Shown here: positions 7,653-12,693 of the stretch, in pieces
Layout of the letters: each line of letters opens with the position of its first letter
Position numbering within the stretch: position 1 is the first letter of the stretch
Assembly (NCBI GenBank): GCA_027489955.1
Contig: JAIXYZ010000005.1
Location: 1-64,000 of the forward strand
DNA: 64,000 nucleotides
From: Hyphomicrobiales bacterium
GTDB lineage: Bacteria; Pseudomonadota; Alphaproteobacteria; Rhizobiales; Beijerinckiaceae
Direction: 5' to 3'
Notes under the pieces: model-generated
Database searches by the model: none
Told to the model about the DNA's origin: nothing
What the model saw: only the letters and a program-made list of their open reading frames with translations
Made by a program: the position numbers and the translations under genes

Positions 7653-7680
7653 GATAAGAGATTATGGTCTCTCATAATGG
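7649..7680. promoter_or_regulatory. Palindrome over the XRE-cupin start codon: candidate autoregulatory operator
   Basis: The arms CCATGATAAGAGA (7649-7661) and TCTCTCATAATGG (7668-7680) match at 11 of 13 positions with a 6-base spacer. The start codon of the regulator (complement of 7650-7652) lies in the left arm. The site is AT-rich in a GC-rich background and sits between two divergent genes, as expected for an operator; lepA starts 119 bases to the right. Confidence 0.55.
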
Positions 7681-7798
7681 AGTCAAGGCCGCGCTCGTCC
7701 ACCGCGAGCGAGGCGAGGCAAGGGGACGCGCGCGGCGACCAGACCTGCGCGACACCGCTCCCCTCGACGCCATCCTTAACGCCTGCTATGCGCCGCGC

Positions 7799-9602
<1,804 letters not shown>

Positions 9603-9604
<2 letters not shown>

Positions 9605-9623
9605 GGGGGCGCTCCCTCCTTTT
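9603..9623 (+). terminator. Intrinsic terminator at the lepA stop codon
   Basis: GAGGG (9603-9607), a 6-base loop and CCCTC (9614-9618) are followed by CTTTT (9619-9623). The stem starts inside the lepA stop codon. It is short but G/C rich. Confidence 0.5.
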
Positions 9624-9643
9624 CCACGGACATTCATGCTCGA

Positions 9644-9767
9644 CGTCATCCCCGGCCGGAGCGCCGAAGGCGCGTAGGGGAAGGGGATCCAGGGCAACGC
9701 CAACCATCGCGCTCCACGCCCGGCTTTCTCTGGATCCCCTTCCCTCGCTTCGCTCGCCGGGGATGAC
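9644..9767. repeat. GGGGATCCAG palindromic repeat, full copy 2
   Basis: About 124 bases from GTCATCCCCGGCCGGAGCG to CTCGCCGGGGATGAC with inner inverted arms GGGAAGGGGATCCAG / CTGGATCCCCTTCCC. It lies between lepA and the GIY-YIG gene. The centre (CTCCACGCCCGGC) resembles those of copies 3 and 4, so the loop is also related by descent. Confidence 0.85.
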
Positions 9768-9804
9768 AATTGCGCGTATGACGTCGGCGGCATGACGCGC
9801 GCCA

Positions 9805-10095
9805 TCACAACAACGCGTCTGTCAGGTCATTCCACTCCGGATTACTCGCCTCGATCAGCTTGAGCTTCCACGCCCGGTTCCAGCCCTTGATCTGCTTCTC
9901 GCGGGCGATCGCCTCGTTGATGTCCGCGTGGGCCTCGGACCAGACGAGCCGCATCACGCCGTAGCGCTTCGTGAAGCCCGGCACCGCGCCGGTTTGATGT
10001 TCGTGCACGCGCCGCGGCAGATCGTTCGTCACACCGACATACAGCGTGCCGTTGCGGCGGCTGGCGAGCATGTAGACGAAATAGCGGCGCTCCAT
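9805..10095 (-). CDS. GIY-YIG nuclease superfamily protein
   Basis: Small single-domain protein of 96 residues. It shows the GIY-YIG fold as YFVYMLASRRNGTLYVGVT (the two Tyr/Val strands), then DLPRRVHEHQTG, the catalytic arginine region, and EAIAREKQIKGWNR with the conserved glutamate. Members of this YhbQ/UvrC-domain-like group are predicted DNA nucleases, but few have a proven role. It stands alone, convergent with lepA and bordered on both sides by GGGGATCCAG repeats, which is worth noting because such genes often lie in repeat-rich spots. No downstream partner is seen. Confidence 0.88.
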   Translation of the reverse strand: MERRYFVYMLASRRNGTLYVGVTNDLPRRVHEHQTGAVPGFTKRYGVMRLVWSEAHADINEAIAREKQIKGWNRAWKLKLIEASNPEWNDLTDALL

Positions 10096-10143
10096 AACGC
10101 CAAGCGTAACGGCCGTCGTGCCTTTGTCACTTCATCCTCGATT

Positions 10144-10265
10144 GTCATCCCCGGCCGGAGCGCCGAAGGCGCGGAGGGGAAGGGGATCCAGCAAGCGGTT
10201 GCCGCCGATCTCCATGCCAGGCCTCTTCTGGATCCCCTTCCCTCGCTTCGCTCGCCGGGGATGAC
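10144..10265. repeat. GGGGATCCAG palindromic repeat, full copy 3
   Basis: About 122 bases from GTCATCCCCGGCCGGAGCG to CTCGCCGGGGATGAC, with the same inner inverted arms as the other copies. Centre: CGGTTGCCGCCGATCTCCAT. It begins 48 bases upstream of the GIY-YIG start codon. Confidence 0.85.
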
Positions 10266-10326
10266 GCGGGAGGGTGCGGTGCGAGCGTGGCGGCTGTGCG
10301 GCCCCACGGGCGTCCCATCCTCCCTT

Positions 10327-10452
10327 GTCATCCCCGGCCGGAGCGCCGGCGGCGCGTAGGGGAAGGGGATCCAGGAATCGGTTGCCACCGCACTCCATGC
10401 CCGGCGTTTTCTGGATCCCCTTCCCGGCGCGTGCCGCGCCGCCGGGGATGAC
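10327..10452. repeat. GGGGATCCAG palindromic repeat, full copy 4
   Basis: About 126 bases, very similar to copy 3 in its left half and centre (CGGTTGCCACCGCACTCCAT). The right end reads GGCGCGTGCCGCGCCGCCGGGGATGAC-like instead of the CTCGCTTCGCTCG seen in the other copies, matching the left end of copy 1. It ends 31 bases before the promoter at 10483. Confidence 0.85.
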
Positions 10453-10482
10453 ACGGAAGGGTAAGCCGGCCCGCCATCCACC

Positions 10483-10509
10483 TTGACAAACCCACCAACA
10501 GAATATATT
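10483..10509 (+). promoter_or_regulatory. Strong sigma-70-like promoter with no gene behind it
   Basis: A perfect TTGACA (10483-10488) is followed by an AT-rich TATATT (10504-10509; spacing 15, or 16-17 if ATATTC or TATTCC is used). In a GC-rich genome this is a striking match. Downstream there is no open frame with a ribosome binding site, so the likely product is an RNA. Confidence 0.55.
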
Positions 10510-10511
10510 CC

Positions 10512-10900
10512 TAACTCCATCTCGTCCCCGAGGGGTGGCCGTCCGGAGGCATGCCTTGAGGCTGGGGCGGGACGGCGGCGCCTGCGGGCGGAGGTTGCGC
10601 TCCGCTCCCGGGAGGCCCGTGGGGACCCCGCCCGGAGGACACTACGATCCTCCCGCGAGGAGCTCGCTAGGTGGACGGGCCCGGCCCGGATCGTTTCGTC
10701 TCGTCCCGCGACAACCCGATGAGGGGACCTGGCGGGGCGGACGGCGGTCCTGATCGCCAGGTCTCGTCCCGCAAGCGCGGCCCCCGGCCCGAAATCGCCG
10801 CAGGCGGAGCGCCGGGAGGCGTGCGCGGGGACGTTTCTCCCGCGCGCCGTGTCCCGGCTGGACATGGATGGCGTTTCAACCCGCGCCTGCCGGCGCTCCG
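10512..10900 (+). ncRNA. Candidate structured non-coding RNA or unknown element
   Basis: Starts just after the promoter at 10483; the end is not defined. The nine-base word TCTCGTCCC occurs three times (10520, 10699, 10762). Stems are possible: GCCGTCC (10538-10544) with GGACGGC (10570-10576) enclosing the palindrome AGGCATGCCT; and GACCTGGCG (10726-10734) with CGCCAGGTC (10755-10763), nine perfect pairs. No frame has a start with a ribosome binding site. I have the impression that similar promoter-headed sequence occurs in other Hyphomicrobiales, but I cannot check that. Alternatives are a decayed gene or a remnant of a mobile element. Confidence 0.4.
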
Positions 10901-10975
10901 CCACCCCTCGACGGTTCATCCCCCGGCGCGCCAGCGCGGCCGGACGCGGACGTGTGTCTCTGCCAGTCGCCCGCG

Positions 10976-11017
10976 GTCACCTCCGGCCGGAGCGAAGCGG
11001 AGGGGAAGGGGATCCAG
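10976..11017. repeat. GGGGATCCAG repeat, left half only
   Basis: GTCACCTCCGGCCGGAGCG... to GGGAAGGGGATCCAG, then the sequence switches to the C-rich module at 11041. The right arm of the palindrome is missing here; a lone right half lies at 11269-11305, so one unit may have been split by the inserted modules. Confidence 0.7.
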
Positions 11018-11040
11018 GCAGCGTGGGCCATTGCACACCA

Positions 11041-11239
11041 CGCCCGGCGCCCCCTCACCCTGTCCCTCTCCCCCGAAGGGGGCGAGGGGACGGCCGCCAG
11101 AGCGCCCTTTTCCCCTCCCCCTTGCGGGGAGGGGCAGGGGTGGGGGTCAGTGGAGCAGGAGCGCGATGCCAGCCATTGCACTCCACGCCCGGCGCCCCCT
11201 CACCCTGTCCCTCTCCCCCTGAGGGGGCGAGGGGACGGC
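11041..11239. repeat. Duplicated 54-base C-rich module
   Basis: The module from CGCCCGGCGCCCCCTCACCC to GAGGGGACGGC occurs at 11041-11094 and again at 11186-11239, nearly identical. Each contains a CTCTCCCCC / GGGGGCGAG hairpin. Between them lies one copy of a second module (11112-11146). Confidence 0.75.
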
Positions 11240-11383
11240 AGGCACCGGGCTCCATGGCCGGCAATTACTAGATCCCCTTCCCTCGCTTCGCTCGCCGGGG
11301 ATGACCGGGGGGGGGATGGGCGAGGGGACGGCAGCCGCCGCGCCATTTCCCCTCCCCCTTGCGGGGAGGGGCCAGGGGTGGGG
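11112..11383. repeat. Duplicated hairpin module CCCCTCCCCC-TTGC-GGGGAGGGG
   Basis: Copies at 11112-11146 and 11349-11383 read CCCCTCCCCCTTGCGGGGAG and continue GGGC(C)AGGGGTGGGG. Each makes a strong hairpin with a TTGC loop. Related hairpins occur at about 65-85, 3003-3035 and 3105-3140, so this is another dispersed family. Confidence 0.7.
11269..11305. repeat. GGGGATCCAG repeat, right half only
   Basis: TAGATCCCCTTCCCTCGCTT to CTCGCCGGGGATGAC. It matches the right arm of the full copies and pairs in principle with the lone left half at 10976-11017. Confidence 0.7.
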
Positions 11384-11456
11384 TCGGTGCCGGAGGAAAT
11401 CCAACGCCGGCCGCGCCCCACGCCCGGCGCACGTCACGAACGGAAAGGAACCAGCG

Positions 11457-11873
11457 ATGGCGCAATCGGACGGAGAGGGCGGCGATCGGTTCGGCGTGGC
11501 GGACGGGCCGGCCGGCTGGCAGCGGGACCGGGCGCAGGCGGCGGAGGCGGTGCGGCGGCGGGCGCTCGATCCCGCCTCCCGCGGCGTGCCCGCCCCGCCC
11601 GGCACGATGCTGGACACCGAGCCCGGCTCGCCCGGCATGCGCAAGCTCGCCCGGGCGCTGGGCGTCTACCGCATCTGCCGGCCGCGCTGCCGCCGCGCGC
11701 GCCATTGCCCGGCCGTGGACCCCGCCCTGTGCGTGCGCCGCTGGTTCGACGTCCATCCGCCCGGCCTGCGCCAGGCGGTGATGGGCATGATCGCCGAGGC
11801 GGTGCGGCAGGGCGGTGCGCGGGAGGCGCGGCACGCGGGACGCCGGACGCGTCCGGGGCAGGGCGGGTGTTGA
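11457..11873 (+). CDS. Hypothetical protein with a cysteine cluster
   Basis: Predicted 138-residue soluble protein with no family I recognise. Its N-terminal half is acidic and low in hydrophobic residues. A basic patch with clustered cysteines, YRICRPRCRRARHC followed by a fourth Cys in PALCVRRWFD, could bind a metal or nucleic acid. The C-terminus is basic. ATG 11457 has GGAAAGGA 8 bases before it. It is separated from the repeats by about 70 bases and convergent with the TetR gene. A real gene is likely from the start signal and Cys pattern, but there is no homology evidence. Confidence 0.55.
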   Translation: MAQSDGEGGDRFGVADGPAGWQRDRAQAAEAVRRRALDPASRGVPAPPGTMLDTEPGSPGMRKLARALGVYRICRPRCRRARHCPAVDPALCVRRWFDVHPPGLRQAVMGMIAEAVRQGGAREARHAGRRTRPGQGGC

Positions 11874-11947
11874 CCCTGCCGGGGAGGCGGCGACGGCAAG
11901 GGAAGTTCCCGGTTCGGGCCCGGCCGGCGCCGGCGCCCGGCAAGTCC

Positions 11948-12577
11948 CTATTTCTGGACGCCGGTGACGATGGCGAGCACGCCCGCGCGCAGCAATTCGC
12001 GCTTGTCCGGCAGGCCCGGCCCCTTGGGCAGGTGCCCGGCGGCGTCGAGGGTCGCGAGCCCGTGGGACAGGGCCCAGACCTCCAACGCCACGAAGCGCGG
12101 ATCCACCCGGAAGCCGCCGGGAAAGGCGGTGGCGAGGGCATCGACGAGAAGCCGCATGGCCGGGGGCATGCCCACCTCCCCGGCGCCGGACGGCCCGCGC
12201 GGGGTAGCCTCGTCCAGCGTTCGCGGGGCGAACATCGCGCCGTAATAGCCGGGCTCCTTCTCGGCGAAGTCGAGATAGGCCTCGCCCATCCGGGTGAAGC
12301 GCTCCAGCGCGGTGCCGCCGCCCGCCACCGCCGCCGCCAGGCGCTTGCCGAGGTCGTCGAACCCGCGGGAGGCGATGGCCTCGACGAGTTCGCCCCGGCC
12401 GCTGAAATGGCGGTAGAGCGCGGCGGGCGTCACGCCGACGATCTTGGCGGCGTCCGCCAGCGTGAAGCCGCCGATGCCGCGGGTGGCGATGAAGCGCTGC
12501 GCGGCCTGCACCAAGGCCTCCTTGAGGTTGCCGTGGTGATAGCCTTTGCGTTCGGTGTCGGGCCGGAAGGGGCGCAT
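11948..12577 (-). CDS. TetR/AcrR family transcriptional regulator
   Basis: DNA-binding regulator of 209 residues. The N-terminal helix-turn-helix is clear: GYHHGNLKEALVQAA, then FTLADAAKIVGVTPAALYRH (about residues 34-53), followed by a TetR ligand-binding C-terminal domain with the FAEKEPGYYGAMF motif. The start at 12577 is preferred to further upstream codons because of a GAGGTGG ribosome binding site and because it places the HTH at its usual distance from the N-terminus. It is divergent from hemW with 116 bases between; whether it controls hemW or a distant gene is unknown. Confidence 0.9.
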   Translation of the reverse strand: MRPFRPDTERKGYHHGNLKEALVQAAQRFIATRGIGGFTLADAAKIVGVTPAALYRHFSGRGELVEAIASRGFDDLGKRLAAAVAGGGTALERFTRMGEAYLDFAEKEPGYYGAMFAPRTLDEATPRGPSGAGEVGMPPAMRLLVDALATAFPGGFRVDPRFVALEVWALSHGLATLDAAGHLPKGPGLPDKRELLRAGVLAIVTGVQK

Positions 12578-12693
12578 GGGGACCACCTCTAACCCGATGC
12601 GCCGTTTGCGCAAACCGGATCGGCCCTGTGAACGGCGCATGGGCGCCGGGCGGGGCGCGTGACGGCGGGCGCCGAACCTGTCAGAAGAGCGCC

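Follow-up and report, generated by a model that had tools for sequence, protein, structure and literature searches.

What is encoded by a stretch of several hundred bases that opens with a promoter-like sequence and contains no recognisable gene? This question is raised by positions 10483-10945 of the window, by which we mean the whole 64,000-nucleotide (nt) stretch of DNA analysed here, from contig JAIXYZ010000005.1 of a Hyphomicrobiales bacterium. A sequence-only reading had proposed that 10483-10900 is an unannotated non-coding RNA (ncRNA) gene with relatives in other Hyphomicrobiales. We identified a free-standing unit at this place, running slightly further than proposed, to approximately 10945, and consisting of a TTGACA promoter, a GC-rich predicted structured RNA of approximately 400 nt and a closing GC hairpin. 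The proposal was largely borne out, with order-wide homologues that carry compensatory changes and no Rfam family at gathering score; of the conditions that were to speak against it, neither a lack of compensatory changes nor a decayed gene was encountered. We consider it quite probable that 10483-10945 is the gene for a trans-acting structured ncRNA of approximately 400 nt, the molecules of which would dimerise through a loop.

We investigated the distribution of this element in other genomes. One copy is present in the genome from which the window comes (G000; 3.13 Mb, 13 contigs), and BLAST recovered matches in three of 59 nearby genomes beyond it, in one of the three over just 31 nt. When a G012 copy served as query, matches were found in 78 of 397 genomes of the family; the long ones lay in the genus Bosea (g12) and in the window's genus, and the rest were short and mostly near the threshold. 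In the large searches, the counts of which are lower bounds because the filters were stricter and few candidates were scored per genome, a covariance model covering the 5'-terminal 150 nt (R1) found the element in 33 of 41 Bosea genomes (1-9 matches each) and, own genome included, in 17 of 159 family genomes (maximum 13 matches per genome) and 12 of 249 order genomes (maximum 12). A second covariance model, made from a diverse alignment (R2), matched at least 40 of 397 genomes of the order, representing 19 of 142 genera and ten families, with the matches in family f35 mostly borderline; in a class-wide sample it matched two of 385 genomes, namely the window's own and one with a borderline match.

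A pattern scan of named genomes gave at least 80 loci, and R1 confirmed 75 of 80 among the matches listed, L148, L154, L178, L179 and L191 being non-members. The confirmed genera, among the matches listed, include Bosea, Tardiphaga, Rhodopseudomonas, Rhodoplanes (R. piscinae), Pseudolabrys, Pseudorhodoplanes, Aestuariivirga and others; Bradyrhizobium sp. NFR13 also carries the RNA, and one Rhodoplanes assembly supplies 12 of the 80 loci. The scan pattern fixes GGCGCCYGCGG, YCGGGVG and AYTACGR, which are present by construction in the named copies, and leaves helices P1, P2, P2b and P5 (Table 1) outside the pattern. These searches establish that copies of the predicted RNA are dispersed across the Hyphomicrobiales.

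The fold was assessed in two alignments. The first, A2, comprises 47 full-length copies (the window and 46 copies from the genus Bosea) and was not fitted to a model; L017 and L064 were left out for want of the end marker, and L014, L063 and L065 by choice. The second, A4, is a cross-genus alignment of 80 rows (78 distinct), fitted to R1 and with Bosea thinned to four rows. The hand-corrected, pseudoknotted structure pairs 97.4% of the cells in A2, compared to 93.5% in shuffled controls, and shows double changes in 29 pairs, compared to a shuffle mean of 13.5 and a maximum of 12 when slid. In A4, 93.5% of cells are paired (70.4% shuffled), with 535 double-change cells (169.5 shuffled, slid maximum 110) and double changes at 28 of 33 pairs (24.3 shuffled). 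Single-sequence folding was modestly better than that of shuffles (z -3.1), the comparative evidence being far stronger, and together the alignments establish a conserved fold of the predicted RNA. RNAalifold run on A2 gave 91 pairs, with double changes in 27; its pairings of columns 20-22 with 40-42 and of columns 51-53 with 521-523 were replaced by P1 and P2.

The sequence-only reading had also foreseen stems of nine and seven pairs, one enclosing a palindrome, without giving their positions; we take these to be P2, which encloses TCCGGA, and P1. All nine modelled pairs of P2 have double-sided changes in A4, where 87.6% of cells are paired and the two innermost pairs are weak, and in A2 87.4% of cells are paired with double changes at two of the nine. 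P1 crosses P2, connecting the P2 loop with the 3' end, and is paired in 95.1% of its A2 cells. A sub-word scan found a complement of at least 6 nt to the P1 strand kept in 68 of 75 full-length copies, compared to 638 of 1500 shuffled strands, these 75 being the 94 copies minus 18 shorter than 430 nt and minus L173, which has no P1 segment; an earlier test with a fixed 6-mer had matched in 41 of 94. Matched changes on the two strands occur as GAAGGG/CCCTTC in 12 copies and as AACGGGGC/GCCCCGTT in two. The comparison thus supports a P1/P2 pseudoknot in the predicted RNA.

Cells with G-U far outnumber those with A-C, at 324 to 19 in A4 and 430 to 32 in A2, so the plus strand is taken to be the RNA. 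This count bears directly on the idea that the element is a DNA-level palindromic repeat, of the kind known as repetitive extragenic palindromes or bacterial interspersed mosaic elements (REP/BIME) and comparable to the GTCATCCCCGG...GGATCC repeats on both sides of it. Dense dispersed intergenic repeats are indeed a feature of this neighbourhood (one query gave 79 matches in the own genome, mostly to that palindromic repeat), but the retention of G-U and not of A-C points to RNA, the fold includes long-range pairs, and the promoter lies inside the unit; we find this explanation scarcely tenable. A decayed protein gene, to which the high G+C content lends some colour by yielding long open frames by chance, is the least probable explanation of those considered. 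None of the four open reading frames (ORFs) of the stretch that were searched matched a Pfam family, ORF 10671-11222 being left out of that search, and no open frame is common to the 47 homologues, in which the longest open stretch ranges, for each of the six frames, from 30-48 to 130-139 amino acids and the copy lengths give all three remainders modulo 3. The earlier judgement that the element holds no protein and no protein family is confirmed to this extent, and the strand of the predicted RNA and the lack of a conserved protein are both established by the comparison.

The perfect TTGACA noted by the sequence-only reading is present, followed by the AT-rich GAATATATTCCTA. The -10 of the window copy is off consensus, since a simple promoter scan reports no site within 9500-12000. 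A promoter of like type precedes the copies of a second genome, G001, and many others. TTGAC lies within the last 72 nt upstream in 46 of 94 copies (two duplicates included; L146, L164 and L187 were left out of the locus list behind the promoter, neighbour and loop counts), compared to 5.8% of letter shuffles. The motif TTCCTA or TAGGAA accompanies it in 31 of these 46 stretches, and occurs in 33 of the 94 overall; a Bosea-type element (TTATCCC or close forms) is found in 29 of the 94, the shuffle control having covered TTGAC only, and some Bosea copies carry the dyad CGGGGATA...TTATCCCCG upstream. These counts establish a recurring putative promoter of the RNA, and the element thus has a predicted promoter of its own, as a gene for a trans-encoded structured ncRNA should.

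A riboswitch, or another cis-acting leader of the gene downstream, would likewise combine promoter, structure and intergenic position. However, no protein family occupies a set downstream place across genera, the hairpin closes the unit, and in the window other repeats precede the next likely gene, which makes a leader very unlikely. Copies from two distant families, those of G533 (L123-L128) and of Bosea, have in common an unusual promoter type, CTTATCCCCGCC...TTACAATG or TATACTC, that replaces TTGACA.

A further feature of the predicted RNA is the loop of hairpin P2b, which contains a 6-nt palindrome in 74 of 80 A4 rows, compared to 19.9% of letter-shuffled loops. Nine hexamers are represented: TCATGA (26), TCCGGA (13), TCTAGA (10), TCGCGA (10), CTCGAG (8) and CTGCAG (3), and, more rarely, ACCGGT (2), CTTAAG (1) and TGGCCA (1). 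Among the 69 loops of 6-7 nt, 61 are palindromic, compared to a mean of 15.7 and a maximum of 26 over 1000 trials in which the 3' halves were dealt randomly. As controls, the P4 loop is palindromic in none of the 80 rows and the P3a loop in ten, six of them in Aestuariivirga-type copies. A recount over 142 rows gave TCCGGA in 57 and ACCGGA in 15 of the 72 Bosea-type rows, and, of the 70 non-Bosea rows, 64 with a 6-nt palindrome, five without and one unreadable. Adjacent bases of one loop cannot pair together, so the covariation of the palindrome points to pairing between two molecules; the same argument, from covariation of adjacent bases to pairing between chains, is used for OLE and GOLLD RNA in the account given in PMC12286853. 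The loop is thus symmetric, with covarying adjacent bases, as in the ornate RNAs, if more weakly so in part of Bosea, and we strongly infer that two RNA molecules join through P2b in a predicted kissing-loop homodimer. A second palindrome, AACGTT, is present in the P3a loop of L115, L116, L118, L120, L121 and L201, where it may perhaps form a second contact.

More than one palindrome occurs in seven of the 11 genomes with at least two examined copies, for example three in G533 (six copies read) and three in G625 (four read); eight copies were read in G617 and two in G100, and the 11 include no Bosea genome. Since paralogues often have different palindromes, an RNA may dimerise chiefly with molecules of its own type. 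This leads to a more tentative proposal, which we think possible and place somewhat below an even chance, the recount of 142 rows having weakened it slightly: a dispersed family of self-dimerising RNAs would form an RNA self-recognition system, in which palindromic codes that often differ between the paralogues of a genome direct assembly mainly within one type and diversify by double changes, possibly coupled to the spread of the unit.

Several observations weigh against these readings. In A2, P1 is double-changed at only one of its seven pairs, copies with ACGGGGC/GCCCCGT being partly misaligned there; L129 has no P1 complement, and six further copies have one of 5 nt only. P3 and most of P8 hardly vary (13 of the 19 pairs of helix 12, in P8, are invariant in A2), so covariation says nothing about them. 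The A4 counts lean towards the model because that alignment was fitted to it, and in general alignment cells are not independent because the copies are related. Nineteen of the 94 upstream stretches, some of them cut short, have neither TTGAC nor the Bosea-type element. Six of the 80 A4 rows lack a 6-nt palindrome in P2b, two of these six keeping CCGG, and the ACCGGA of 15 Bosea-type rows is palindromic in its CCGG core only. Finally, CCGG is present in all 72 Bosea-type rows, and differing codes per genome were not seen in Bosea.

The arrangement of copies in genomes bears on how the family arose. Bosea copies mostly become similar at a single point shortly before the promoter element (query base 961 or 964) and stay so until about the closing hairpin; their flanks mostly differ, apart from a few matches that continue into flanking DNA, as is the case at shared sites. 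The family appears to have spread by copying of approximately the whole transcription unit. The window copy is common to G001, where contig C13 corresponds to the lepA side (92%) and C16 to the TetR side (82%). A further G001 copy, which seems to link an end of contig C11 with an end of C4, lacks a counterpart in G000; there its two flanks lie 192 bases apart (C5:401069-401260), and within Bosea L053 is filled and the corresponding L063 empty. The predicted RNA family therefore gains or loses copies at individual sites; the empty sites are too diverged to show target duplication. When the unit ends of Bosea, G533, G617 and G625 were compared by eye, only some Bosea copies had ATCCCCGCC at each end, and terminal inverted repeats were dropped as a trait of the unit. 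We also noted tandem partial duplications of the 5' domain adjoining another copy, at L181 7134-7482, G309:C14:403583-404076 and G344:C40:71134-71482.

We could not find a consistent protein neighbour: three protein clusters appear beside copies from 3-5 genera, with no fixed distance or side, the flanks being of uneven length, and the largest neighbour clusters were rejected as frames over the RNA element itself. A Bosea copy gave no blastn match in 72,556 plasmid and 50,697 phage records, nor did an incomplete Aestuariivirga copy, comprising the promoter and the first part, in the plasmids, searches in which distant members would be missed. These results have to be set against the chief rival explanation, which is not exclusive of an RNA gene. 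Here the unit would be a non-autonomous mobile element, copied around the genome, with an RNA that serves its own spread without benefit to the host, for example as guide or assembly RNA for a transposase or reverse transcriptase encoded elsewhere. Such an element would explain why genomes hold several copies, some of which lie at contig ends, where near-identical repeats are expected, and would also explain the similarity that mostly begins at one point between differing flanks, the filled and empty sites in G001 and in Bosea, and the existence of truncated copies. It is less easily reconciled with the lack, by eye, of consistent inverted repeats or target duplications, with the absence of a consistent neighbouring protein and of plasmid or phage matches to the Bosea copy, with some copies being at sites common to species (lepA-TetR in G000 and G001, and the sites of other groups of copies), or with the strong structural constraint. 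On balance we regard it as unlikely, while giving it real weight.

For the trans-acting ncRNA that we favour, the following mechanism may be proposed. A regulated promoter, with the TTCCTA motif or, in some Bosea copies, the CGGGGATA/TTATCCCCG dyad, would make a free RNA; its 5' hairpin and 3' end would lock as a pseudoknot, as comparison of the copies suggests; and two molecules would join through the palindromic loop, as covariation suggests. The dimer would then act in trans, and by analogy may be a self-assembling scaffold or sponge, most likely for a protein partner.

No family among those searched accounts for the element. As the sequence-only reading had advised, we searched Rfam 15, which presumably includes OLE, GOLLD, ROOL, HEARO, 6S, tmRNA and RNase P. 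Neither the window nor ten loci of the genus Bosea nor fifteen further, diverse loci gave a family that attains its gathering cut-off over the element; the only three matches in the loci (a serC leader, 6S and a tRNA) all lie outside it. Matches at permissive E-values were set aside as sub-threshold, being mainly microRNA models on GC hairpins. We found the family neither in Rfam nor in the open papers searched. The HEARO/IscB omega RNA and the IS110 bridge RNA are structured RNAs in multi-copy elements, from which the new RNA differs in having no consistent protein neighbour and no Rfam match. The dimerisation initiation site of human immunodeficiency virus type 1 (HIV-1) has a 6-nt palindrome in a short hairpin loop, the same type of loop, although here it belongs to a predicted chromosomal bacterial RNA and no common descent is claimed.

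Judged by its loop, the RNA is predicted to work like the self-assembling ornate RNAs, while being a member of no family tested. OLE, GOLLD and ROOL are likewise large structured bacterial RNAs, described as homo-oligomers joined partly through kissing loops, and in OLE a palindromic loop tetranucleotide switches from GGCC to GAUC or AGCU (PMC12286853). The new RNA, which we set apart from them without a detailed comparison of helix order, differs in having no Rfam match, in being almost confined to the Hyphomicrobiales in our searches, and in its multiple copies, which are scattered through a genome and often differ in their palindromes. Within the same order, the BjsR small RNAs (sRNAs) and Br-REP repeats of Bradyrhizobium are also orphan RNAs or repeats, some in 2-4 copies; as described in PMC5082802, BjsR RNAs are mostly limited to Bradyrhizobium and appear on blots with 60-160-nt markers, and Br-REPs are short palindromes, and both are set apart by these descriptions. 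SmelA075, SmelA099 and other multi-copy Rhizobiales sRNAs are similarly trans-encoded in several copies per genome, but SmelA075 and SmelA099 are described as three or four consecutive similar hairpins, and SmelA075 as present on all replicons of S. meliloti 1021 (PMC3927594). The Rhizobiales-1 and Rhizobiales-2 motifs are candidate structured RNAs of this order (PMC2864571); Rhizobiales-2 (RF01723) gave no match to the new RNA, and Rhizobiales-1, which has no Rfam accession in the table of that paper, lies outside the Rfam comparison.

The element would add a large structured RNA class to an order whose members Rhodopseudomonas and Bradyrhizobium can be studied in the laboratory. RNA-only quaternary assemblies, as found for OLE, ROOL and GOLLD, were called previously unobserved for natural RNAs in PMC12286853, and the new RNA is a further candidate for one. 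Its predicted dimer contact takes nine palindromic forms, often differing among paralogues, so self-recognition of RNA becomes testable by simple base swaps. More generally, the case shows that a repeat scattered between genes can turn out to be an RNA gene under strong constraint. The features of the window copy are collected in Table 1.

Table 1. Predicted features of the ncRNA unit in the window. The 5' and 3' ends of the RNA are inferred; x marks the pairing of two strands.
Feature	Positions	Strand	Basis or remark
-35 box TTGACA	10483-10488	+	sequence
-10 region (TATATTCCTA), overlapping the recurring TTCCTA motif	10504-10513	+	motif also in G001 copies and other genera
Predicted ncRNA of ~400-430 nt, from P2 to the terminator-like hairpin	10517-10945	+	model match 10516-10672, alignment A2, G-U far above A-C
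P2 hairpin, 9-pair stem (G-U allowed), TCTCGTCCC x GGGGCGGGA	10520-10528 x 10564-10572	+	
P1 5' strand GAGGGGT	10530-10536	+	pairs with ACCCCTC 10903-10909 across P2 (pseudoknot)
P2b hairpin, 6-nt palindromic loop TCCGGA at 10542-10547	10538-10550	+	predicted kissing-loop dimer site
P3 5' strand CGGCG	10576-10580	+	pairs with CGCCG 10796-10800; invariant at 4/5 pairs, no covariation
P3a hairpin	10581-10612	+	double changes at 4/10 pairs (A2), 6/11 (A4)
P4 hairpin GAGGA/TCCTC, conserved loop AYTACG	10635-10652	+	double changes at 4/5 pairs (A2), 5/5 (A4)
P5 hairpin GCGAG/CTCGC	10655-10667	+	invariant in A2; 5/5 double-changed in A4, 87.0% of cells paired
Variable central domain, with copies 2 and 3 of TCTCGTCCC	10680-10770	+	shortened in L043, L044, L062; longer in L012
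Conserved core AAGCGCGGCC...AAATCGCCG (3' strands of P6 and P3)	10773-10800	+	invariant A2 columns; A2 helices 4, 6 and 7
P8, a long arm (10803-10822 x 10883-10902) that contains two inner hairpins	10803-10902	+	A2 helices 12-14
P1 3' strand ACCCCTC	10903-10909	+	A2 alignment and complement test
Terminator-like GC-rich hairpin, no clear T tract	10923-10943	+	folding; a like hairpin closes the Bosea unit

The central domain appears to be dispensable or expandable, with copies of 323-326 nt or 468-498 nt (L012, L043, L044, L062, L063 and L065) beside the usual length of approximately 390-407 nt. The word TCTCGTCCC, which the sequence-only reading had counted three times, does occur exactly three times in the window (10520, 10699 and 10762) and nowhere on the other strand. 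Its repetition looks incidental, because copies 2 and 3 lie within the variable domain and were not seen in the same-genus copy L003.

The unit is flanked by lepA (7664-9604) and a gene for a GIY-YIG protein (9805-10095, minus strand) on one side, and by an unnamed ORF (11301-11873) and a TetR regulator gene (11948-12640, minus strand) on the other. The ORF downstream of one G065 copy (L047 3400-3800) looks similar by eye to the unnamed ORF in its cysteine pattern, a link for which the neighbour comparison gave no cross-genus support. The GIY-YIG endonuclease gene lies, together with palindromic repeats, in a segment between lepA and the RNA (9770-10325); contig C13 of G001 aligns to 9301-9769 and 10326-10556 of the window, with no match to the gene itself. 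The palindromic repeat GTCATCCCCGG...GGATCC...CCGGGGATGAC is found at 9635-9769, 10125-10265, 10313-10453 and 11267-11305. A second intergenic repeat (CCCCTCACCCTGTCCCTCTCCCC...GGGGCGAGGGG and relatives) is present in several copies at 11050-11245 and 11340-11390, and also occurs beside the RNA copies of G001.
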